A DNA stretch of 40,274 nt from Verrucomicrobiota bacterium (GTDB lineage: Bacteria > Verrucomicrobiota > Verrucomicrobiia > Opitutales > Opitutaceae): contig VHCJ01000026.1 of assembly GCA_016871755.1 (NCBI GenBank), forward strand, positions 1 through 40,274, read 5' to 3'. Positions 13,498 through 31,654 of this stretch are shown piece by piece. The notes below the pieces were generated by a model, which was not told the DNA's origin, ran no database searches, and saw only the letters and a program-made list of their open reading frames with translations. Within the stretch, counting starts at the first letter, position 1; each line of letters begins with the position of its first letter. The position numbers and the translations under genes are program-made.

Positions 13498-13573
13498 TGG
13501 TGGGCCCACTGGGATTCGAACCCAGAACCAAAGGATTATGAGTCCTCTGCTCTGACCGTTGAGCTATGGGCCC
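13498..13573 (-). tRNA. tRNA, anticodon CAT, probably tRNA-Ile2 (lysidine type)
   Basis: Read on the minus strand, a complete cloverleaf of 76 bases with encoded CCA (13498-13500). The acceptor stem GGGCCCA/TGGGCCC is fully paired, D-stem GCTC/GAGC, anticodon stem GAGGA/TCCTT with loop CTCATAA, T-stem CTGGG/CCCAG with loop TTCGAAT, discriminator A73. The anticodon is CAT, which serves elongator Met, initiator Met or Ile2. The first acceptor pair G1-C72 is matched, which argues against an initiator. C4-G69 and C5-G68 are present; these are known recognition elements for TilS, which converts CAU to lysidine-AU, so isoleucine is favoured over methionine. The tRNA call is near certain and the amino acid likely but not proven. 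No clear promoter is seen in 13574-13676. Confidence 0.93.
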
Positions 13574-14318: not shown

Positions 14319-17114
14319 TTACGGGACCTCGTAGACCTCGACGAGGCTGATGCCCGTCGTTCCGCCGACGCCGGAAACCTGCGCGCTGTAGCTGCCCGGG
14401 GGCAGGGTCAGCAGCACGGCTGCGTCCTTGCCACCGGCCGGCAGGGCGAAGGCGCCCGACTTCGCGGCAGCATCAAGGAGCAGGGCAAGGTTGTTCCCCG
14501 ACTCCCAGTTGTCATTCTCGCGAATGACACTGGTGCCTTGGAAGATCCGCAGGAATGGATCCGCCAAGGTCCCGGATACGCCCAAGGCGCCGAGGGCAGG
14601 ACCCACCGCGCGGATGAGGACGCGCTTGGCAGAGCTGCCGTTGACGACGAAGCCTGCCACGAGGATCCGGTCACCCGTGCCGACATCGCCGCGCGTCGAG
14701 AGGTTCAGCACCTTCTGCGCGGTGAACGGCTCGGGGACGTCGAGATCGAAGACCTCGGCGAGAGCGACGCCGGAGCTGGCATTCACGCCACCGACCACCG
14801 CCGTGTAGATGCCGGGGTTGAGCGTGACGACCAAAGCGGAGTCGCGACTACCAGCGGGGAGCGGCAACGCGCCCACCTGGGCGGCCGCGGCCTGCGCCTC
14901 GGGGTTGTTGCCCCAGTCATCGTTCTGATTGATGATCGAGGAACCCCGGTAGAGGAGCAGGTTCGGATTCGCCAGCGTACCGGTCACGCCAAGGCCGGCG
15001 AGACCCGGACCGATCGCGCGCACCAGCATCCGCTTCGGCGTGTCGCCGGACACCACAAACCCGGCCACCAAGACGCGTTCGCCGGAGCCGACGGCACCGC
15101 GGGTCGAGACATTGCGCAGCACGCCGTCGCTGAAGGAGGATCCGGTCGAGGAAGCGCCCGTGAAAGCGCCCGCGAGGGATCCGCCGGTGATCGTGCCGGA
15201 GAGGAAGCGGCTCGACATCTGGATGGTGCCGGCGACCCGGGCGCCCGAAGCCAGATTGAAGGCGAAGGCGCCGTTCGCACTTACGCCGCCGGAGCCGGCG
15301 TCACGCGCCGACCCATCCGCCACGTAGAGCGACAACGTGCCGTCCGCGCCCACGATCCCGACGACCGTGCTGGCCGCGCGACCGGTGAGGTTGCCGTTGT
15401 ACAGGCCGGATGGCACCGTCGTCGTGCTCGTGCCGAACGTGACGGGCGAGATGAACGAGGCCCTGCCGCCGTCGAACGTTCCCGTCGCCCCGGTGTCCGA
15501 GAAACGACCGCTGATGAGCGTCGCCCCAGTGGAGTCGGTGAGACTGAAGCCGTTGCCGGAGTCGACCGTGATCCCCTGGTAGAAGATAAACTTCGGGGAG
15601 GGACCGTTGGTCTGGGCGATGGCCACGGCGGTACGACCACCGGTGTTGATCAGCGTGATGCGCCCGGAGTCGCTTCCAGAGGCGAAGTTGCCGCTGTAGG
15701 TTGTCTCGGACGAAGCCGCCGACGCCTCAGCGGTCACAAGCACCGCAGAGGCCGCCGAAACGGTCTGCTGGCCGCTGTTGTCCCTCGCCAGCGCCGTGAT
15801 CCGATAGACGCCGGGGGACGCGGGTACGAAGTTCAGCGTGTACGGTGCGGCGGAGGCGGAGCCGATGGGCGCGCCGTTCGCGAAGAACCGGACGTCAGAG
15901 ATCGTACCATCAACGTCCGAAGCGGAGGCCGCGATGGAGAGCCCGCGACCGATCGGCGACGTGGACCCGCTGGCGGGTGACGTCAGCGAAACCTTCAGCG
16001 GCGAGCCCGCCCGGACGGTGATCCGAGCCGGCGCCGAAACGGTGGTGCGGTTCTCCGAGCGGAGCACGGCGTGGATGTCGTAGGTGCCCGCGCGGGTGAT
16101 GCCCAGATTCGTGGTGAACGGCTCCGCCGTCAGGGTCGTGAAGATCGAGCCGTTGACGTAGAAGTCGATCGCCGGCACGGGGCGGTTGCCCGCGTTGTGC
16201 GACGCAGCGAACACGATTTGGCCGCCTGCGGTGTAGCTTCCACTGGTCAGCGGGCTGTCAAGCTTGACCTCAAGGGGCGCGACCGCGTTCGACGGCTGCG
16301 TCTGGATCGCCAGCGGTGCCGGGGTGGTGACGTTGCCGGCGTTGTCCGTGACCACGACCGAGATGATGGCGTCGCTGAGCGTGTCCAGCGGCAGGACGGT
16401 GTAGAAGGGCTCGGCGTTGACCGACGCGATCCGTCGACCGTTCAGGAAGAAGGTCGCGTTGGTGATGGAGCCGCCCTCATCCACCGCACTGGCGGTCACA
16501 AGCAACTTTGACCCATAGGCCACGGTCACAGGCTTGAGCACGTCCGACGTGGTCGGCGGGTTGCTCACGCCACGACCGGGCTCGTTGAACGCCAGGCTTG
16601 CGACGGGCAGGTTGCCCACGGCCGCGTTGACGGTGACCGTCGCCACGGCCGAGGCCACGCGATTGCCCGCGTTGTCCGTGGCGGTGGCGACGACGGAGTA
16701 GATGCCGGGCGCCGAAGGAACCCACGGCACGACGTAGGGGAAGGACTGGACCGTGCCGATCGACTCTCCGCTGACGGCGAACATCACGGAGGTGATCGTG
16801 CCATCGCTGTCGACGGCGTTGGCGGCGAGGGCGACCGGAGCCCCGACGGTGCCGAGCGCGCCGTCGACCGGCGAGACCAAGGACACCTGGGGGAGGCCGG
16901 CGCTCGGCGCGACCACGTCGACGGGGATCGTGGCGGAGGCCACGTTGCCATCGTTGTCGAGAGCCTTCACCACCAATGCGTAGGCGCCTAGGCTGGTCGG
17001 CGTCCAGGACGCGGTGTACGGAAAGCTCGAATCGGAGCCAACGCCCTGCCCATTGGCGAAGAACTGGACCGACAGGCGGTTGGGGCGCGCTCGTCCGCGC
17101 AACGAAAATACCAT
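14319..17114 (-). pseudogene. 5'-truncated Ig-repeat surface protein with duplicated C-terminal module
   Basis: An open frame of 931 codons with no signal peptide that starts in the middle of a repeat, so the 5' end is missing. About residues 14-460 are four to five bacterial Ig-like repeats of about 90-100 residues with VSLTSPASG-type starts, (I/V)xDVRFFANGxxIG and YxLxAxAxDNxG strands. About 465-660 is a Gly/Ser/Thr-rich beta region. The last 270 residues are two copies (about 665-800 and 801-931) of one module: (V/L)STRGxVGxGxRxLVAGFV, VL(I/V)RA(V/I)GP, NDxW, and a closing LAEVFD or LVEVYE. The full-length form would be exported and cell-surface or secreted, probably binding carbohydrate or protein; that is inference. 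Within the first few codons (about 17085-17105) the frame runs into an unrelated gene start. Whether the frame is ever translated is unclear. A terminator follows at 14250-14296. Confidence 0.75.
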
Positions 17115-17163
17115 TCTCGTTGTAGTCGACGAAGAACCCTTTGGCCTTTTGGGAGAAGAGCAT
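17095..17163 (-). pseudogene. 5' fragment of a possible PilM-like gene
   Basis: On the minus strand an ATG at 17163 opens a frame reading MLFSQKAKGFFVDYNENG and then IFVARTSAPQPP. It is well formed for about 30 codons and then runs into the Ig-repeat DNA in a different frame. The strand-turn-strand pattern FFVDYNENGIFVAR resembles the phosphate-binding start of actin-fold proteins such as PilM. That match is weak and by eye only. The fragment sits directly behind a long leader (17164-17400), so it is the natural first gene of that transcript. The rest of the gene is absent here. The exact junction cannot be fixed; it lies around 17085-17105. Confidence 0.5.
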
Positions 17164-17405
17164 GAAACAGGCTGCCGGACCCCTATTCGGCACGGCTAAC
17201 CCGAAGGTTAGGGACGGTTTTGCCTCCTACCCCAGCCAATTCGGGAAAGACACTCAGGCTCAGACCCCCGAAGCACACCCCAGACATCTGGGTTGTTCCC
17301 CCCATAAAGGATCGAAATCTACACAATTGGCTTTCAATCATGATATTATGAATACCGCACACCTTATGCATAAAATTCCCTACCCCGGCCCGGATCCCGG
17401 CTGTG
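17164..17405 (-). promoter_or_regulatory. AT-richer leader with hairpins; possible structured RNA
   Basis: This stretch is visibly lower in GC than its surroundings. On the minus strand it contains CTAACC-TTCG-GGTTAG (17211-17196), a 6-bp stem closed by a UUCG tetraloop, followed by TGCCG...CGGCA pairing just ahead of the ATG at 17163. GGCAAAACC lies just before the first hairpin and GCCGAAT just after it. The order GCAAA, hairpin, GCCGAA recalls the 3' half of c-di-GMP-I (GEMM) riboswitches, but the 5' half is not visible. A palindrome TTATGCATAA lies at 17364-17373, and CATAAT (minus strand, about 17345-17353) may be a -10 element. No gene is seen in it. Confidence 0.4.
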
Positions 17406-17666: not shown

Positions 17667-20600
17667 TCAGCCGACCAAAACCCAATCGCGGATCTGGGTG
17701 AAGACGAGGCCGCAGCGGACGTCTTTTTCCGCCAACCCAGTCAACCGCGCGACCACCTGACGGTAGAGGCCGAGTTGATCCACGTAGCGGCCCGCCGCGC
17801 GCTCCGCACCGGCCCGATCCGCCACGCGGTCCGTCTTGAAGTCCCAGATCCAAGCGCTCCGCGCCGCGCGGTCCGGACCGCGCACGATCACCACGCGATC
17901 ACAGATGCCCGTGATCCAGTGGCCATCGAGCACCACCTCAAACGCCCGCTCCCGCCACAGTTCCGGATCGCCTTCGTCGGGGGCGGGCCGCGCAAACACC
18001 GCCGCCAGCGCCGGCTCATCCACGCACGCCTGCGCCTCGGCGCGGATCGCCGGAGCCGCCGCCATCCAGAGTTCCGTCTCCACGCGCCCGTCACCGGGCC
18101 GCCGCCACGCGATCTCCGCCAGCAGCGCGTGCACCGCCGTCCCGCGCTCCGCCCCCGCGGATGCCGACAAAGCGAACACCTGCGACCCGGTCAACACACT
18201 GCGCTCAGTGCCCGAGGGGGTGCGCGCCGGAAGGCGGGCCGGCGCCGCCGGCGCGTCCACTTTCACCGGTGCCATCGCCGGCAACTCGTCGGTACGGACC
18301 CGAAGCGCCTCATACCAGCGTTCATCGCCTTCGACGTACGTCTCTCCCAACACGGTCTGCAGTAGCCACGGGAAGCCGCGCTTCTTCGACTCTGGCTTCA
18401 CCCGCTGGGCGACAAGGTACATCGCGCGCTTCGCCCGGGTCATGGCAACGTACCACTTGCAAAGCGACTCGTAGCCCGACTGCGCCTCCGCCTCGTCCTT
18501 GTACGCGGTCAGGACGGGGTCGCTGTCCGCAAAGACCTTGTTCGGGAGTTCCAGAATCCATGACACGCTGCGGTCCGCGGCCTTGTGCACCGCCAGCGAG
18601 GAGCGGCGGCCCCCGGCGCCCTCAAGCTCGGCGAGGATGACGAGGTCAAAGCCGAGTCCCTTCGCCTTGTGGATCGTGAGCACCCGGACCACCGCCGCCG
18701 TATCCGCGTCGCGCACTTTGGTGCGCTCCGCATACTGCAGGAACTCCGCCACGTCACGGCTGGCCAGTTCGTCGAAGTCCCGCGCCGCTTCCACCAGTTG
18801 CCGCCCCCGCAGGCGACTGAACTCGTCCGCGGGATCCAACCGCGCCGCCGCCGCTTCCACCCAGCGCTCCAGCGTCGCCGCGAATCCGTCCGCATGGATC
18901 TCCCGCAGGAGGCGCCGGGAAAGCATCTCCGACGTGGCGATGCCGCGCTCCGCCAGGACCGATCCCAGAGGCGTCATGCGCACGTGCGCCCACGCGAGGC
19001 TGTCGCCCGGATGCGCCGCCGCCCGGACCATCGCGAGCAGCGCCGCCGTGAAGGGATTGTCCGTGCACACCGCCAAGTCACTCTCCGCCACCGCCGGAAG
19101 CTGGCCGTGGCGGCGCAGGTAATCCGCCAGCGCCGTGCCGGTGTCGTTCTTCTCCACGAGGACCGCCACCGTCAGGCCGCGGGCCAGCGCCTCGGTCTCC
19201 TGCAGGATGCGCAGGGTCTCCGCAAATCGTCCTTCCTGATCGTCCGCCCAGCGCACCGCGACGACGCCGTTGAGGTGGCGCCTCGCCGTCGTGTGCTCGC
19301 GCCATTCCCGGGCCCACGCGTCCGCCGCCGCAGGCGACACGGCCTCGCCCAGCGCGGCGCGAGCGCCGAAGACCCGGTTCACCGCCGCGATCACGGCCGG
19401 TCCCGAGCGCCACGAGGCGTTGAGCTCCTGCTCCTCGATCGCCTCGCGATTCGTCTGGTTGTAATGCTGCAGGATCTCCCGGAAGAGGCGCGAATCACCC
19501 TCCCGCCACGCATAGATCGCCTGCTTCACGTCGCCGACGTAAAAGAACGAACGAGCTCCCTCCGGGTCCTGCACGACTTCATCAATGAGGTTCCGCAGGA
19601 CGAGCCACTGGCCGTGACTGGTGTCCTGAAACTCGTCCAGAAGCCAATGATCGAACTGCGCATCCAGCCGCCAATCGATCGCCAGCCGGCGCTCGCCGGG
19701 AGAGCCCTCCGAGGCATCCTCGCCGGACGCGAGCAGGGGTCCGCCGGCGTCCGGACGCAGCAGGCGCTCGACGTCGGCAAAGGTCATGCGGCCGTTGCGC
19801 CTTACGGCGTCGTGGTAGCGCTGCTCGTACGTCCGCAGCAGCGCGAAGAGTCCCTTCGTGGTCTCCAGCCGACGCCGCAGTTCCGCGGCGATCAGGGCCT
19901 CGGCGAAGGCGACCAGCACCTTCGCGAACGCGGGGTCGGGCGAGAACTTCACGCGTTCGATCGTGAGTTGCCCTCGTCCGGCCCGAAGCTCCGGAAGCTG
20001 ACCCACCACCTTCTTGAGGAGGTCATCCAGCGCCGTGCCCAGGGGGGCGCCCGGGCGCCACTCCGCCGCGTCCGCCAACGCGGTCTCCAACCGGGCGCGC
20101 TGCGTGTCGCGGAGGGCCCCGCCGCTCGCGCGCACTTGCCCCGCCAATCCGGCCACGGCCTCGGCGACGGTCGGCTTGCCGCGGACGGGTGATGTATCCT
20201 TTGTCCAAATACGTTGTTCCTCGCCCCACACCACCCCCAGCGGCGCCGCGAGGTAGACCCCGCCGTACTCGGTCAGGTAGCGCTCGAGCCGTTCCGCAAG
20301 GCCCTTCTCCTCCACGCCGAAGGTCGCGCGCTTGAAGGCCTCGATGAATTCCTTCTGCGCGGCGTCCGGTTCGCCTGCGGCGGTGAAGAGCGTCCGGAGC
20401 ACGCGCCGGCGCTCCCGCTGCGCGGCATGCTCGTGCAGGATCTCCAACTCGCCGCCGAGGCCGAGTTCGAGGGGAAAGTTCCTCACGATGCGCGCGAAGA
20501 AGCTGTCCAGCGTCCCAAGGTTCAACCGGGGCATCGCGTCCACGACGCGCCGGAGCAGTCCGAGGAAATTCCCAGGGCCCAGCGCCGGCTGGCCGATCAT

Positions 20601-20813
20601 CGCCGCCAGCGCCGCCGCCTCCTTCGGATCACCGGCCGCCCGCGCCAGCTTCTTCAGGATCTCGTCAAAGAATTCTCCCGCCGCCTTCCGGGTGAAGGTC
20701 AGCGCCACGATGCGCTCCGGGTCCGCGCCCTGGGCCAGCAACGCCACCACGCGATTCGTGAGCGCGAAGGTCTTGCCCGAGCCCGCCGAAGCGAGGATCG
20801 CGGTGTTCGCCAT
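17667..20813 (-). CDS. addA: AddA-type helicase-nuclease subunit
   Basis: A 1048-residue UvrD/Rep-family protein with a C-terminal nuclease. Residues 8-15 (ASAGSGKT) are the Walker A. LTFTRKAAGEFFDEI is motif Ia, LLDEFQDTSHGQW motif II, YVGDVKQAIYAWREGD motif III, LTIHKAKGLGFDLVILAE motif V and YVAMTRAKRAMYLVAQ motif VI. The last 180 residues hold the RecB-type nuclease (ITGICDRVVIV, then AWIWDFKTDRV with the D...DxK core, then YVDQLGLYRQVV). With AddB it resects double-strand breaks for RecA loading. The ATG at 20813 begins MANTAILASAGSGKT; the longer reading from 21005 overlaps addB and looks non-coding. Only five bases separate it from the addB stop, so the two are coupled. Confidence 0.93.
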   Translation of the reverse strand: MANTAILASAGSGKTFALTNRVVALLAQGADPERIVALTFTRKAAGEFFDEILKKLARAAGDPKEAAALAAMIGQPALGPGNFLGLLRRVVDAMPRLNLGTLDSFFARIVRNFPLELGLGGELEILHEHAAQRERRRVLRTLFTAAGEPDAAQKEFIEAFKRATFGVEEKGLAERLERYLTEYGGVYLAAPLGVVWGEEQRIWTKDTSPVRGKPTVAEAVAGLAGQVRASGGALRDTQRARLETALADAAEWRPGAPLGTALDDLLKKVVGQLPELRAGRGQLTIERVKFSPDPAFAKVLVAFAEALIAAELRRRLETTKGLFALLRTYEQRYHDAVRRNGRMTFADVERLLRPDAGGPLLASGEDASEGSPGERRLAIDWRLDAQFDHWLLDEFQDTSHGQWLVLRNLIDEVVQDPEGARSFFYVGDVKQAIYAWREGDSRLFREILQHYNQTNREAIEEQELNASWRSGPAVIAAVNRVFGARAALGEAVSPAAADAWAREWREHTTARRHLNGVVAVRWADDQEGRFAETLRILQETEALARGLTVAVLVEKNDTGTALADYLRRHGQLPAVAESDLAVCTDNPFTAALLAMVRAAAHPGDSLAWAHVRMTPLGSVLAERGIATSEMLSRRLLREIHADGFAATLERWVEAAAARLDPADEFSRLRGRQLVEAARDFDELASRDVAEFLQYAERTKVRDADTAAVVRVLTIHKAKGLGFDLVILAELEGAGGRRSSLAVHKAADRSVSWILELPNKVFADSDPVLTAYKDEAEAQSGYESLCKWYVAMTRAKRAMYLVAQRVKPESKKRGFPWLLQTVLGETYVEGDERWYEALRVRTDELPAMAPVKVDAPAAPARLPARTPSGTERSVLTGSQVFALSASAGAERGTAVHALLAEIAWRRPGDGRVETELWMAAAPAIRAEAQACVDEPALAAVFARPAPDEGDPELWRERAFEVVLDGHWITGICDRVVIVRGPDRAARSAWIWDFKTDRVADRAGAERAAGRYVDQLGLYRQVVARLTGLAEKDVRCGLVFTQIRDWVLVG

Positions 20814-20818
20814 CGTCC

Positions 20819-23746
20819 TCACGGGTTCACTCCTCCTTCCGAGGCCACGCTCTCCGCGGCTCCGCGATGGAAGAGCGAGGCGAAGTCGTCGTAGTCCGGC
20901 GCCTGCTCCACCACCGGACTGAACCGCCCCGCTTGGACGGCCTCCACCACGCCGACCGCGCAGCGCTCCGCCGCCGCCTGCAGGTCGCTCGTGAGCTCGG
21001 TCCACTCCAGGATCGCGGTGTCTCCCACCGCCTTCGGCAACGTGAAGTACGCGCAGGTGATCTCGGATCCATGGGTCTCCAGCAACGACCGCCGGTAAAG
21101 CGGCAACTGCAGGTCCTTCCAGATCGATTCACCCTTCCCGTTCACGACCCGCTGCCAGTCGTCACGCCACGCGTCGTCCGGACCCGCCGGGCGCAAGTGC
21201 GTGCTGTGCGGCGGGTCGCCCTTGTCGGAGGTCTTGTAGTCGATGACCCGAACGCGCCCGTCGCGTTCGTGGCGTTCGATCCGGTCAATCGAGCCGGTCA
21301 CGGCCATGCCGCCGAGCGTCAGTTTGATCTCACGCTCGGTGTCTTCGATCACCCAGCCTTGTTCACGCTGCTCGGCCTGCTTGGCGGCCACGGCGCGCAG
21401 GCGTTGTCGTGCGGACTCGAACTGGACCATCAGCGGCAGGGTCAGCCGGTCGCCATGCCGGGAGCGCACCGCCGACTCGAAGCGGGCCAGCAAGGCGTCC
21501 TCCAAGCGCTTCGCCTCGCGGCAGTCGCGGCAGTCGGGGTCGCCAAGGACGCGGAGCGCCAGGTGCACGAGATTCCCGAAGCCCGCCGCGTCGAGTTCCG
21601 CCTGGTCGAGCGCCACCGTCCGGAGGCGATGAACGCGTCTCAGGCGGAAGCGGAAGGGACACGCGAGCCAGTCGCGGAAGGCGGTCACCGAGAGGGTCTT
21701 CAGCGGAGTCAACGGGGGCGGTGCGAGGCGCCACGCGCGGGCCCAGGGCAGGCTCGACTGGGGGGCGCGCACTTCATCGAAGAGTTGCGCGATGCGGACC
21801 GGCAACTCCGCATCCGGGCAGCGGAGGAGAAGCCGCGAGGGTCGCTGGGGCTCACCGTCAGCCGAGACCTTGCCGACGAGCACCTCCAGCCGGCCCCGCG
21901 ATCCCGCCCGTGGCGCGGCCAGAGCCTCCAGCAGGTACGCGTCGCGCGCGAAGCGCTGGGCATTCGTGCGGAGGCCGATGCGCTCGCGCAGTTTCTCCGG
22001 CAGGAAGGCGTCGCCCACGATCGTCTCCGGGACGTGTTTCTCGTTCAGCCCCGCCACGACGAGGTGCGGAGCGTCCTCCCACAGCAGCTCGATCCAGCCA
22101 TTGAGCTCCAGCGCCCCGTCACGCTTGGCTTCGAAGCGCGTGCGTTCCGCGAACTGGGCCAGCGCGAACTCCCACGCATCCCCGAGGGTTCGCGCCGCGC
22201 CGTCGAATGCCTCCAGTGCCTGGCCCGCCTCCCGCGCCGTCTCGATCCACGCCGCCGCCGAGGCAAACAGGTCCGAATCCGTCTCGATGCTCCGCCCGAA
22301 AAACAGGCGCTGCAGCACGTCCGTCGCGTTCTGCGGAAACGATCCCGCCACCAACTGCGTGCGCAGGTCGGCGAGAAGGCGGAGCGCCCCAAGGGCCAGG
22401 TCGCGGGGCCTCCGGTGCTCGCCTTCCGGAGGCTCCGCGCTCGCGCACTGCTGCGCCGCCGCCAGATCCGGCGGCAGGTGATCGGCGCCGATCGCGTCGA
22501 TCTGCGTCAGCAGGCCCTCCACCGAAAACGCGGTACCCCCGTCGCCCGGGGCGCTTGCGCCTCGGACCTCCTCCTCAAGCCAAGCGAACACGTCCGGACA
22601 CCGCACCAGCGTCGTGACCGCCTCCCAGTCCGCCCCACGCGCGAAGGCTGCCAGCGCGTCGAGAAGTGCGTAAAGGCCATCCCGGCGCCGGGGGCGACCC
22701 GCAGGATTGTACGCCGAGATCCCCGCCCGAGCCAGCGCGGGCTCGACCACGCCCAGCACGTCGGGATCCGCGATCCCCAGGGCGATGTGGCCCTCCGGCT
22801 TGGGATAGAGGCGGACCCGCTCCACCATCCGCGCCGCCTGCATCGTGTTGTCGGCGCAGAGCTGCACGCGCTGCGCGAAGTCCGGCCAGTCCAGCGGCCG
22901 CCCGGACCATGCGTCCGGTCGCGGGCGTCCCCACGGGTCGAACCACTGCGCCAAGGAGTCGGGTGAGGCATTCGGCGCAAAGACCACATTCTCCACCGGG
23001 ACGCGTTCGCTGAGGCTCGCGAGGAGCCGCGCCGCCACCGGCGTAAGATCGGGTGTCGCAATCACGGCGACCCGCTGCACGCCCGCCGGCGGGTCAACCG
23101 CTGCAGCGGCACCGTGCGCCAGCGCGAGCTCCGGCGCCCGCCGCTGCCGGGCGGCAAGACGGCGGTCGACCGCCGCCTCCAATTCACCCAACTGCTGCCA
23201 GCGCGCCTCCTCCGGAAAACCATTCGCGGCGCCACCGGCCAGCCGCACGACGTCCCCCATGCGCAGCCCGGACTCCGCGAGCGTGGCCTGCAGCCGAAGC
23301 AAGCGGGACGCCAAGCCCCGCGCCCAGCTGAACGAACGCGTCGGAGGCGCCAGCGGAAACACGTCCGGAAACTGCTCCGGATCGAGCTCCAGCAGCGTCT
23401 CGATCCACGCCAGGGTCTGCTCCGCCCGGGTCGCATCCGGGTACACGCCCCGCACGACCGGCAGGACCAACGCAGGGAGCGTCTCCGGCGTCACCACCCG
23501 CGGCGGGAAAACGGCCTGACCATGTTGGTCCGCTCGCCACGCCAGCACCTCGCGCAGGCGACGTCCGGCCTGGCGGGTCGGCACCACCACCAGCCACCCA
23601 GAAAGATCCAACGGTCGGTCCGCCGGCCACCCCGCCGCCAACCAGCCCGCCGCGGCCTGCGTGAGCATGCTGTCCCACGCCAGCAGGCGCGTGTACCGGC
23701 CCGGGGCAGGCACGGCGGACAACGGTGACGCGGAGGCTTCGGGCAC
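20819..23746 (-). CDS. addB: AddB-type PD-(D/E)XK nuclease subunit
   Basis: A 975-residue protein. The N-terminal LSGWLVVVPTRQAGRRLREVL resembles the Walker-less AddB of alphaproteobacteria rather than the Walker-bearing Bacillus form. The C-terminal third has SVTAFRDWLACPFRFRLRRV, FGNLVHLALRVL, then GSIDRIERHERDGRVRVIDY followed by KTS and LQLPLYRR: the order of a RecB-type nuclease (D, then DYK, then QxxxY). No CxxC cluster follows, so the iron-sulfur site of Bacillus AddB appears to be missing. The GTG at 23746 is chosen because GGTGGAGG precedes it by four bases; an upstream start at 23896 adds unconvincing residues. It is first in the addB-addA pair and works with AddA in break resection. 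Bases 23747-23820 show no gene. Confidence 0.88.
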   Translation of the reverse strand: MPEASASPLSAVPAPGRYTRLLAWDSMLTQAAAGWLAAGWPADRPLDLSGWLVVVPTRQAGRRLREVLAWRADQHGQAVFPPRVVTPETLPALVLPVVRGVYPDATRAEQTLAWIETLLELDPEQFPDVFPLAPPTRSFSWARGLASRLLRLQATLAESGLRMGDVVRLAGGAANGFPEEARWQQLGELEAAVDRRLAARQRRAPELALAHGAAAAVDPPAGVQRVAVIATPDLTPVAARLLASLSERVPVENVVFAPNASPDSLAQWFDPWGRPRPDAWSGRPLDWPDFAQRVQLCADNTMQAARMVERVRLYPKPEGHIALGIADPDVLGVVEPALARAGISAYNPAGRPRRRDGLYALLDALAAFARGADWEAVTTLVRCPDVFAWLEEEVRGASAPGDGGTAFSVEGLLTQIDAIGADHLPPDLAAAQQCASAEPPEGEHRRPRDLALGALRLLADLRTQLVAGSFPQNATDVLQRLFFGRSIETDSDLFASAAAWIETAREAGQALEAFDGAARTLGDAWEFALAQFAERTRFEAKRDGALELNGWIELLWEDAPHLVVAGLNEKHVPETIVGDAFLPEKLRERIGLRTNAQRFARDAYLLEALAAPRAGSRGRLEVLVGKVSADGEPQRPSRLLLRCPDAELPVRIAQLFDEVRAPQSSLPWARAWRLAPPPLTPLKTLSVTAFRDWLACPFRFRLRRVHRLRTVALDQAELDAAGFGNLVHLALRVLGDPDCRDCREAKRLEDALLARFESAVRSRHGDRLTLPLMVQFESARQRLRAVAAKQAEQREQGWVIEDTEREIKLTLGGMAVTGSIDRIERHERDGRVRVIDYKTSDKGDPPHSTHLRPAGPDDAWRDDWQRVVNGKGESIWKDLQLPLYRRSLLETHGSEITCAYFTLPKAVGDTAILEWTELTSDLQAAAERCAVGVVEAVQAGRFSPVVEQAPDYDDFASLFHRGAAESVASEGGVNP

Positions 23747-28012: not shown

Positions 28013-29371
28013 TCAATCGACGGTCAGCGAGGCGCGCCCATCGGCGAACTCCGCCGAGACGCGGGCTCCCGCAGCCAACGCCTGGCGGCGCAGCACCGGT
28101 TGGCCTGCGCCATCGCGCAGGATCACGAAGCCCCGGTTGAGCACGGACGCCGGGCTCGCCGCCTCCAGCCGCTTCCAGAGTCCGAGGAGCCGCTGGGACT
28201 CGAGCCGGATGCGCATCTCCGGCGACACCCGCGCAAAGGCGGCGGCGCGCTGGGTGAGCGCGTGCCTCCGCTCCCGCACGCTCCGGTGCAGCGCTGCTTC
28301 GAGCCGGTTGCGCTGATCATCGACGCGAAGATAGCCGCGCTCCACCAGCGCCGCCGGGGTGAGCAGGCGCAGGCGCGAGCCGGCGTGCTCCAGACGGCGC
28401 CGGGCGGCCTCGGCGCCGGCCTCGACTTCGCGCCCGAGACGTTCAGCGGCACGCGTCACGCGTTCGACGCAGGCGATGAAGCGGCTGGAGATGAGTTCCG
28501 CCGCAGCGCTCGGCGTCTCCGCGCGCAGATCGGCGGCGAAGTCGCAGAGCGTGATGTCAATCTCGTGCCCGACCGCCGAGACGATCGGCACCGTGCACGC
28601 CGCCACGGCCCGCACCAGCGGCTCCTCATTGAAAGCCCACAGATCCTCGAGGCTGCCGCCTCCGCGCCCGATCACCAGCAGGTCGAACATCCCGAGCGCC
28701 TCAGCCGCGCGGAGCATGGCCGCCATCTCCGCAGCGGCTCCCTCCCCCTGCACCTTCGCGGGCAGGATCACGAGCCGGCCGCGCCACGACCGGCGTCGCA
28801 GGATCTGGATGAAGTCCTGCACCGCCGCGCCGGTCGGCGACGTCACGAACCCGATCGTCCGCGGCATCTCCGGCAGCGCCCGCTTGCGTTCCGGGGCGAA
28901 GAGCCCCTCCTCCGCCAGCCGCCGCTTCAGCGCCTCGAATTCCCGCTGCAGGCGGCCCACGCCATCCTCGACCACGGCCCGGACGACGAGTTGGTACTGG
29001 CCGCGCGGCTCGTAGACGCTCACCTGACCGAAGACCACGACCTGCAGACCGTCCCGCAACACCACGCTCTGCCTCGCCGCGTCGCCGCGGAACAGCACCG
29101 CGGAAAGAGTCGCTTCAGCATCCTTCAGCGAAAAATAGACATGACCACTGCCCTGCGTCTTGAGGTTCGAGACCTCCCCGCGGACCCAGCCGGCCGGCAT
29201 GCCGTCCTCCAGCAGCCGCTTCACGCGCCGCGTGAACTCTCCGACGCTGATCACCCCCGCCCCAGGGCCTGCCTCATCGGTCCCGCCGGCCTCGCCGCGC
29301 CCGCTCCGCGACCGGGTCACGCCCCCGCCCGCACGACTGAACTCCCCTTCGCTGCCCGTCGGCGGAGTCAT
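28013..29371 (-). CDS. xseA: Exodeoxyribonuclease VII large subunit
   Basis: A 452-residue XseA. The N-terminal OB domain (VRGEVSNLKTQGSGHVYFSL at about 64-83) and the catalytic core (ITSPTG-type FVTSPTGAAVQDF, then GRGGGSLEDLWAFNEE and VSAVGHEIDITLCDFAAD) are complete. A long helical region and a C-terminal GFVILRDGAGQPV strand follow as usual. It degrades single-stranded DNA with XseB; no xseB is recognised in this window. The ATG at 29371 overlaps the stop of the upstream VTT gene as ATGA. The first 40 residues are Gly/Ser/Arg-rich and not part of the fold, so an internal GTG near VISVGEF (residue 40) is a possible alternative start. Confidence 0.94.
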   Translation of the reverse strand: MTPPTGSEGEFSRAGGGVTRSRSGRGEAGGTDEAGPGAGVISVGEFTRRVKRLLEDGMPAGWVRGEVSNLKTQGSGHVYFSLKDAEATLSAVLFRGDAARQSVVLRDGLQVVVFGQVSVYEPRGQYQLVVRAVVEDGVGRLQREFEALKRRLAEEGLFAPERKRALPEMPRTIGFVTSPTGAAVQDFIQILRRRSWRGRLVILPAKVQGEGAAAEMAAMLRAAEALGMFDLLVIGRGGGSLEDLWAFNEEPLVRAVAACTVPIVSAVGHEIDITLCDFAADLRAETPSAAAELISSRFIACVERVTRAAERLGREVEAGAEAARRRLEHAGSRLRLLTPAALVERGYLRVDDQRNRLEAALHRSVRERRHALTQRAAAFARVSPEMRIRLESQRLLGLWKRLEAASPASVLNRGFVILRDGAGQPVLRRQALAAGARVSAEFADGRASLTVD

Positions 29372-30069
29372 GCGTTCCCGTCCCCGTACGCCTTCGGTCG
29401 CTGCCGCCGGAGGCGAAGATGACGCCGCAGCAGGTGCACGCCGAGAATCGCGGCGATCACGAGACTGATTCCGAGCACGGCGACCTTCGCCTTGCCGTGC
29501 ATCAACGCGTCGCCGAAGATGACCACGCCGCTCAAGTTGATCATCGGGAAGAGCAGCGAGGGCACGAGGTAGATCCGGAACGGGATTTCCGCGAGCCCGA
29601 GCAGGTAGCTCTGGACGAAGAACGGCGGCCCCGGCGTGATCCGCACCAACAACGTCAACTCAAAGTGCTCCGAGGCCGGAACCACCGGGATGCGGTATCC
29701 CAAGCGACCCAGCACCCACGCGAGCAAGGGGCGAAACGCGCGGCGCGCCAGCCAGTAGGTCAGGACCACGTTCACCGTGATCGCGGCGGCCGACCCCAGC
29801 AGCACCCCTCCCAGCCCCAGTTGCGCGCCGAACGCAGGCCCGGCCGTGAGCGCGAAGGCCATCAAGGGAAATCCCACCGCAGGCAGCAGCGCCATGGCCG
29901 TGAAGAATGCCAGCGGTCCGAGCAGCCGGATAAATTCCATGATATTGAATATCATGGCTTTAACATCGAAACCGCGGAGTATGAGCACGGCGGCGACGGC
30001 GAGCACGGCGAGGACCAAGCCCCCCTTGACGAGGAATTCCCGTCGGTCGCGCGGTTCCGCTCCAGCCAT
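29368..30069 (-). CDS. VTT-domain (TVP38/TMEM64) membrane protein
   Basis: A 233-residue inner-membrane protein with about six hydrophobic segments. The core FPLMAFALTAGPAFGAQLG and RITPGPPFFVQSYLLGLAEI match the VTT/SNARE-associated domain shared by DedA and TMEM64-type proteins, some of which scramble or transport lipids. A first membrane segment sits at about residues 17-35 (LVLAVLAVAAVLILRGF). The ATG at 30069 is used; the longer reading from 30414 looks non-coding. It is coupled to xseA by a 4-base overlap. The function is known only at family level. Confidence 0.85.
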   Translation of the reverse strand: MAGAEPRDRREFLVKGGLVLAVLAVAAVLILRGFDVKAMIFNIMEFIRLLGPLAFFTAMALLPAVGFPLMAFALTAGPAFGAQLGLGGVLLGSAAAITVNVVLTYWLARRAFRPLLAWVLGRLGYRIPVVPASEHFELTLLVRITPGPPFFVQSYLLGLAEIPFRIYLVPSLLFPMINLSGVVIFGDALMHGKAKVAVLGISLVIAAILGVHLLRRHLRLRRQRPKAYGDGNA

Positions 30070-30169
30070 GGTGCCACGATGCCGATGTTGGGACGGCGCC
30101 GTCAAGGTCCGCGCAGCCCGTCGCGCCTCCCGCGGCGCGGCGGTCCGGGCGCGCCCGCTTCGCGTTTCC

Positions 30170-30631
30170 ATGGCGCCCGACTCCTCTCCCACACACCCCG
30201 TCCGCCGGGTCGGGCTCGCCGCGCTTGCGCTGGTCGGGCTGGCGTGGCTAGCCCTTTCCATCGTCTCTCCGTCCGCCTCGCTCCCGCAGGTCTGGCCATG
30301 GTCGGGTGTGGCCGTCATTGCCTGGGGTGCGGTCGTGGGGGCGGGGATGTACGGCTGGTGGCGTGGACCCGCGGCGCCGCGCGCCCGCGGCGCACGACAG
30401 GCCGGTGGAACCATCGAAGCAACGCCCGGCGGTGCGGTCCGGACATCCGCCCCCGCGCTAAGGCGCCTTCAGACCCACGGCCTCGGCGGCGAGCGTGCCA
30501 AGCGTGCGGCGCAGGTCGGAGACGTCGCCCTGGCCCTTCGGGTGGAGGCGGCTCGACAGGAAGATGACGAAGGTCGCGGAGCCCGGATCGATCCACACCG
30601 AGGTGCCGGTGAAGCCGGTGTGACCAAATGA
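30170..30631 (+). CDS. Possible small membrane protein, overlapping an antisense gene
   Basis: A 153-codon frame. The first 70 residues contain two clear hydrophobic segments (VGLAALALVGLAWLALSIV and SGVAVIAWGAVVGAGMYGW) with strong G/C at codon third positions, and a pyrimidine-rich leader precedes the ATG at 30170, like other genes here. The last 58 codons lie antisense to the end of the serine-hydrolase gene and look like a shadow of it. A real, shorter protein with a lost stop, or a frameshift near 30450 where TAA occurs in the next frame, is equally possible. No homologue is recognised. Confidence 0.45.
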   Translation: MAPDSSPTHPVRRVGLAALALVGLAWLALSIVSPSASLPQVWPWSGVAVIAWGAVVGAGMYGWWRGPAAPRARGARQAGGTIEATPGGAVRTSAPALRRLQTHGLGGERAKRAAQVGDVALALRVEAARQEDDEGRGARIDPHRGAGEAGVTK

Positions 30632-31654
30632 CCGCCCGGTTGGGAAGAGCGTTCCCCGCGGCGCGGAGAAGCGCGTGTCGATGTCCCAGCCGAGCCCGCG
30701 CCGATCCACGCCGTTGGTCTGCGCGCGGGTCATGTCCGCGACCGAGGCGGACGACAAAACGGCGCGGCCGTCCGGCCCGCGACCGTCCGCGAGGATCATG
30801 CGGCAGAAGCGTGCGAGGTCGGCGGCCGTGGTGAACAACCCGGCATGCCCGGCGACTCCCCCCATGGCACGCGCGGTGGGATCGTGCACGATTCCCCGGA
30901 GCAGCGCCTCGCCGACCCGCTCGGTCGGCGCGATGCGCGGTCGAAGCGCTTCGCCGGGATTGAAGCCGGAGTCGACCATGCCGAGGGGCGCGAAGATGTG
31001 GCGGGCTGCGTAGCGGTCGAGTTCCTCGCCGGACACTGCTCGGACGAGTTCGCCGAGAACGATGAAGTTGATGTCGCTGTAGACGAAGCGCTCATCCGGA
31101 GTCGCTTGCGGACGTTCGGCGCAGGCGAGCGCGAGCGCCGCCGCGCGTCCACTCCAAGCGGGCTGGAGACTGAGGCCGGGGCGGAGGCCGGACCGGTGGG
31201 TGAGCAGGTGACGCACGGTGATCGCACCCTTTCCGTGGGCGGCGAAGTCGGGCAGCCACCGCGCGACCGGCGCGTCGAGCGCGAGTTGGCCGCGCTCGAC
31301 CTGTTGCAGGACGGCGGTGGCGGTGACCACCACCTTGGTGAGCGACGCGGCATCGTAGACCGTGTCGGTCGTCGTCGACTCCGCCGCCGGTTCGACGGCG
31401 CGGAGTCCGTGGGCGCGGACATGATCAACGTCGCTCCGGCCAAGCCACAAGACGCCGCCGGGAACCCGGCCGGCGAGGATGGCGGCATCGATCGCGGCAT
31501 CCATGGCCGCGAGCGCCACCAGCGGGAACACCGGTTCCGCCGCTACGCCGGGTGGAGTGGCGGCGCCAGACGCGGCGACCGTGCCGGGCGCACTGAGGAG
31601 CAGCGCGGCTGCCGATCCCGCGACCGCGCGGAACACGCGCCGGGGCAGGCTCAC
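30458..31654 (-). CDS. Exported serine hydrolase, beta-lactamase/PBP4* family
   Basis: A 398-residue class C-type fold. Residues 1-28 form a signal peptide ending near GTVAASG. S104-L-T-K107 (DAASLTKVV) is the SxxK nucleophile motif, Y192-S-D (FVYSDINF) the second motif, and FGHTGFTGTSVWIDP near residue 337 takes the KTG position as HTG. The HTG and YSD versions are common in esterases and peptidases of this family rather than in antibiotic-hydrolysing enzymes. The start is GTG at 31654, overlapping the SIE stop as GTGA, so the two exported proteins are made together. It may act on peptidoglycan or an esterified sugar. Confidence 0.88.
   Translation of the reverse strand: MSLPRRVFRAVAGSAAALLLSAPGTVAASGAATPPGVAAEPVFPLVALAAMDAAIDAAILAGRVPGGVLWLGRSDVDHVRAHGLRAVEPAAESTTTDTVYDAASLTKVVVTATAVLQQVERGQLALDAPVARWLPDFAAHGKGAITVRHLLTHRSGLRPGLSLQPAWSGRAAALALACAERPQATPDERFVYSDINFIVLGELVRAVSGEELDRYAARHIFAPLGMVDSGFNPGEALRPRIAPTERVGEALLRGIVHDPTARAMGGVAGHAGLFTTAADLARFCRMILADGRGPDGRAVLSSASVADMTRAQTNGVDRRGLGWDIDTRFSAPRGTLFPTGRSFGHTGFTGTSVWIDPGSATFVIFLSSRLHPKGQGDVSDLRRTLGTLAAEAVGLKAP

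Follow-up and report, generated by a model that had tools for sequence, protein, structure and literature searches.

The proteins PilM, PilN, PilO, PilP and PilQ form a trans-envelope complex that is required for type IV pili in Pseudomonas and Myxococcus. In the verrucomicrobium Akkermansia, a PilQ secretin has been assigned to the outer membrane (PMC4960237). Loss of type IV pilus genes has been described in phage-resistant isolates, where the pil changes reported were nonsense or frameshift mutations, one sequenced variant carrying a frameshift in pilM, while the large deletions described there (214-486 kb) removed galU (PMC5492357); in addition, two resistant strains were described as having no mutation in pilM, N, O, P or T (PMC4687649). 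In the genus of Opitutaceae analyzed here, the gene order PilM-like protein, three small proteins and secretin is that of the pilMNOPQ alignment-complex operon, and differs from it in that an Ig-repeat gene follows the secretin gene. One genome has probably lost nearly all of this block. In contrast to the phage-resistant laboratory isolates, its probable loss of pilus genes is read from a contig sequence.

Results

Genomes compared

The window, i.e., the whole stretch of DNA analyzed (40,274 nucleotides), is the entire contig 26 of a draft assembly of 144 contigs and 3.67 Mb (GCA_016871755.1, hereafter G000; completeness 97.4%, contamination 1.8%), which is the one genome of its species in the comparison, and the junction described below is known here from this assembled contig alone. 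The relatives compared were the nine other genomes of the genus (G001-G009). Breakpoints were placed mainly by comparison with G005 and also with G003, both about 75% identical to the window at the DNA level. A search with the Ig fragment retrieved 15 named loci, 14 of them titled as metagenome-assembled genomes (MAGs); 13 bear Opitutus-type names (Opitutaceae, Opitutae, Opitutia or Opitutus) and two are named Verrucomicrobia. Kinship places the organism of the window in the same group. The 15 include G003, G005 and the G009 contig that carries the tail of the secretin gene (L068), which leaves 12 further loci.

Junction and reading frames

The preliminary description of the locus reported a well-formed gene start at the ATG at 17163 that runs for a short series of codons before it meets the Ig gene out of frame, and both observations were confirmed. 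The PilM-like gene starts at this ATG on the minus strand, opening MLFSQKAKGFFVDYNENG, and is followed for 29 codons and two bases (Table 1). The interval originally given, 17085-17170, points to the right junction and ends some 10 bases before the join is reached: compared with G005, PilM-side homology stops at 17075 and Ig-side homology begins at 17076, with an overlap of two bases, while compared with G003 the Ig-side match extends a few bases more, with mismatches. Residues 1-37 of the PilM remnant showed 81% identity in a protein search, the last few of these residues lying beyond the join. As DNA, the 5' piece matched eight of the nine genus genomes at E ≤ 0.001, and in the ninth (G007), which also has a full PilM-like gene, it was matched by direct blastn; because the piece is thus matched in all nine, the PilM match is not due to chance.

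The distance from 17163 to the Ig-frame ATG at 17114 is 49, which is not a multiple of three. Past the join, the pilM frame is out of register with the Ig gene and reaches a stop after 228 codons, while the Ig frame stays open up to its natural stop at 14319. A structured RNA at the junction was rejected, the sole match in the window at the Rfam gathering score being a distant tRNA.

Table 1. Coordinates of features at and beside the junction, in positions of the window.
Feature	Position	Strand	Remark
3' remnant, Ig-repeat protein gene	14319..17076	-	Equivalent to G005 protein residues 458-1373; uninterrupted down to its own stop
ATG-started ORF, 931 aa	14319..17114	-	Chance ORF; begins within the pilM remnant and follows the Ig frame
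5' remnant, PilM-like gene (29 codons and 2 bases)	17075..17163	-	Collinear with the genes of G005 and G003 as far as 17075
Junction of the probable deletion	17075..17076	.	Ambiguous by a shared 2-base CC (judged from G005)
COX24_C-like ORF, 33 aa	17494..17592	-	Conserved neighbor upstream of pilM
AddA/RecB-like helicase-nuclease gene	17667..21005	-	Conserved neighbor upstream of pilM; rate control

Organization of the locus in relatives

In G005, the order of genes is AddA-like, the 33-aa COX24_C-like ORF, PilM-like (347 aa), three small proteins (210, 187, and 188 aa), secretin (578 aa) and an Ig protein of 1373 aa from its likely start. The secretin passed the Pfam Secretin profile (PF00263; 158.5 bits, cut-off 27.5), and the PilQ-like protein scored 253.8 bits against NCBIfam TIGR02515, below the cut-off of 284.35. 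The PilM-like protein scored 25.7 bits (E = 5e-06) against TIGR01175, and since this is below the curated cut-off of 133 it is called here PilM-like. The three small proteins matched no Pil family, giving weak matches such as GspM for the first of them (16.8 bits, cut-off 60), and the labels PilN, PilO and PilP were given by position and size only.

All nine genus relatives gave matches to the PilM-like protein, the three small proteins and the secretin, and in seven of them a single contig carries the block on one strand as far as the end of the Ig gene. The G001 contig terminates within the Ig gene, the block of G009 lies on two contigs and is broken within the secretin gene, and in G002 the PilM, PilO and Ig matches are broken across frames. 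The PilM-like and Ig genes are separate genes in a conserved order on the same strand in the relatives, as the preliminary description had proposed to check, and in none of the nine relatives are the two fragments joined in frame. Two close copies of the secretin were found in G008 on separate contigs (C41:1504-3189 and C36:5337-7034), perhaps because of a mixed bin.

Among the 12 further Ig loci, a secretin match lies upstream in seven (L070, L072, L074, L076, L077, L078, and L079; only the tail of the secretin in L076), five of which have a PilM-like match as well (L070, L072, L077, L078, and L079), and in several of the further loci the Ig match lies some kilobases past the secretin. No PilM-like or secretin match was found on the stretch fetched in L069, L071, L073, L075, and L080, where some contigs start close by. 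The link between the pilus block and the Ig gene is thus constant within the genus and common, not universal, outside it. Since the Ig gene follows the secretin gene, its product may be a surface protein that is tied to the pilus or exported nearby.

The missing segment

With both flanks collinear, the window is 5834 bases shorter than G005 at the junction, and the six relatives from which the size was determined (G003-G008) carry 5.8-6.1 kb extra at this point; G002 was left out for its patchy flank match, and G001 and G009 because their contigs end inside the block. A single base error that would restore one frame, a possibility raised at the outset, is thus impossible. As DNA, the missing segment had no match in G000, where 40 of the 110 candidates from the first look were scored. 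That query matched all three relatives tried, covering 5831 of 5834 bases in G003 and parts of the segment in G001 and G009, which makes the empty result for G000 informative. A secretin orthologue of at least 68% identity was present in each of the nine relatives, whereas the best secretin match by E-value in G000 was a 34% paralogue, and this genome holds only distant secretins of kinds that are found in the relatives also. The remainder of PilM was not found in the G000 assembly either, and the presence of either gene elsewhere in the genome was rejected.

Both flanks are therefore collinear with the relatives, in the same strand and order, and the internal segment is absent, as in a gene-truncating deletion. 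The preliminary description had left a choice between a deletion, an inversion and a misjoined contig. The conserved gene order beside the junction supports a simple deletion, while an inversion or a fusion of distant loci is ruled out, because strand and order match those of the relatives and the two genes lie only about 6 kb apart there.

The longest word common to the 100-base surroundings of both breakpoints was of 6 bases in G005 and 7 in G003, and among 485 random pairs from the same locus the commonest longest shared word was 8. Within the window, 15-mers from up to 60 bases around the junction did not recur. With an assembler word length taken from general knowledge as about 21 bases, the shared word of 6-7 bases in G005 and G003 is too short for a repeat-mediated misassembly, and recombination or misjoining through a repeat was rejected for lack of a long shared word at the relatives' breakpoints. 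A short-read misjoin via a shared repeat is unlikely, since the breakpoints share only about two bases and the relatives show no repeat there, although the window's own lost DNA could share a longer word than that of the relatives.

The Ig gene and its remnant

The Ig remnant lacks residues 1-457 of the 1373 of the G005 protein. It had been described as missing its signal peptide and first repeat, and both are indeed gone, the signal peptide being a putative one recognized by eye in G005, but the loss covers four of the seven Big_7 stretches of the whole protein rather than one. The remnant retains Big_7 repeats and a C-terminal region of the DVUA0089 family.

No stop was found in its 916 codons, and compared with G005 dN was 0.130 and dS 1.152. 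With G009 as outgroup, polarised amino-acid changes numbered 56 on the window side and 59 on the G005 side, and 45 against 61 in the comparison with G003; with G004 as outgroup, the counts were 46 and 48 (window, G005) and 43 and 51 (window, G003). For the AddA-like control, 1049 codons remained once those with gaps or stops had been excluded (the aligned part of G005 has a single stop close to its start), and they gave 45 changes on the window side and 60 on the G005 side, a ratio that does not differ from that of the remnant (Fisher p = 0.42). No excess of amino-acid change was thus seen in the remnant compared with relatives that have the whole gene. Because the remnant has neither stops nor such an excess, the sequence indicates that the event is young relative to the species split or is an artefact. 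Decay of the remnant was rejected as a clock: as none is seen, it cannot tell a recent event from an artefact.

The C-terminal 266 residues (window 14322-15119) comprise two repeats and recur across many proteins. All 10 aligned rows matched NCBIfam DVUA0089 at E ≤ 1, the row of the window with 38.7 bits (cut-off 29). Searches with the Ig query gave 24 to 75 matches per genus genome, many of the matches listed being to this part, and in 10 of 11 loci checked the region lies at the very C-terminus, while it is internal in one; it may be a C-terminal sorting or anchoring region. Its predicted fold (mean pLDDT 83.6) gave weak PDB matches, the best by E-value being a tandem collagen-binding domain (3.1e-07, TM 0.29 of query) and a lower one a single pre-peptidase C-terminal domain (2.2e-03), and a sequence-profile search of PDB chains with the region returned none at E ≤ 1. 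The predicted fold adds nothing on the junction.

Pilus motor genes elsewhere in the genome

Contig 24 of G000 encodes a PilT retraction ATPase of 360 aa (TIGR01420, 457.4 bits, cut-off 319.1), with dN 0.021, dS 0.841 and nine changes on the window side versus three. The same contig carries two whole PilB/GspE-like ATPases, which pass the Pfam T2SSE profile and fall below the NCBIfam cut-offs for PilB and GspE; these are less constrained than PilT (dN 0.301 and 0.249; changes 35 to 31 and 13 to 9). Intact motors and strong constraint on PilT are as expected if pili still worked, and they count against a loss of the pilus.

Other differences along the contig

At window positions 30334-30447, about 114 bases stand where G005 and G003 carry about 5.2 kb. 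In G005 this segment encodes a WbaP-like sugar transferase, an O-antigen-ligase-like protein and glycosyltransferases, names that come from inspecting the translations by eye. A search of G000 with the WbaP-like protein, run without a positive control, gave no match. The ORFs at 29371-30414 and 30461-31654, which flank this shortfall, look whole, and at the same place G009 has about 17 kb and G001 about 15 kb. A tRNA-Met lies at 13498-13573, adjoining which G005 has about 11 kb extra. Since G003 is collinear with the window there, the comparison suggests that an element was inserted near the tRNA in G005.

Discussion

The data are best explained by one deletion, probably real and recent, that fused the start of a PilM-like gene to the final two thirds of an Ig-repeat gene. 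It would have removed about 5.8 kb within the conserved PilM-N-O-P-Q-Ig block, with end joining over about two shared bases linking PilM-like codon 30 to roughly codon 457 in the Ig gene. Lost with it would be most of PilM, the genes in the PilN, PilO and PilP positions, the secretin gene and the start of the Ig gene. In this genome the deletion would be present in the organism's DNA and of recent date, the fused gene would be dead, and no type IV pilus would be made via this machine, though the PilT and PilB-like motor genes are whole. Such a deletion is an ordinary kind of event, and its product an ordinary loss allele.

The main rival is an assembly artefact, which is rather unlikely: the block would be whole in the organism, and the contig would skip 5.8 kb, left unassembled or unbinned, through a chimeric read, gap closing or strain collapse. 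The assembly is a draft of 144 contigs, nearly all of the named relatives are MAGs, the break within the secretin gene of G009 suggests that the region may be hard to assemble, and the undecayed Ig remnant and intact motor genes would look the same in an artefact. The second shortfall of about 5.2 kb on the same contig points in this direction too, although the genes on either side of it look whole and the polysaccharide region in which it lies varies in length in G009 and G001 as well. The relatives' breakpoints, however, have no shared word, and the 5.8 kb segment was found nowhere in the 97.4%-complete assembly; a misjoin that also lost this segment would presumably need two coincidences. 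A strain mixture, in which a real deletion is present in part of the population and the contig represents the commoner or better-assembled allele, is unlikely; being a special case of the deletion, it overlaps with it in probability. The undecayed remnant and intact motors fit such a mixture, but no piece of an intact allele was found in the assembly.

It is highly improbable that the junction created a functional new fusion, expressed from the pilM promoter as the 931-aa ORF that starts with the 17114 ATG and kept by selection. The 931 codons are open and the Ig part is under purifying constraint (the dN and dS against G005 given above), but this constraint equals that of the relatives and need not postdate the junction, the ATG is a chance start in another frame of pilM, and no signal peptide was seen by eye, though the protein is of a secreted kind. 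Phage pressure in a wild population could be considered as a cause, since type IV pilus and polysaccharide genes are of kinds known as phage receptors; a recent loss of the pilus alignment complex together with the polysaccharide genes 13 kb away, with motors intact, is quite improbable as an account of this contig.

What follows concerns mainly annotation hygiene. The two pieces should be labeled as remnants of PilM-like and Ig-repeat genes, and the genome should not be recorded as being without this pilus machine before the junction is checked in the reads. If the deletion is real, it would represent a fresh loss of the pilus platform in a genus in which all nine relatives compared retain it.
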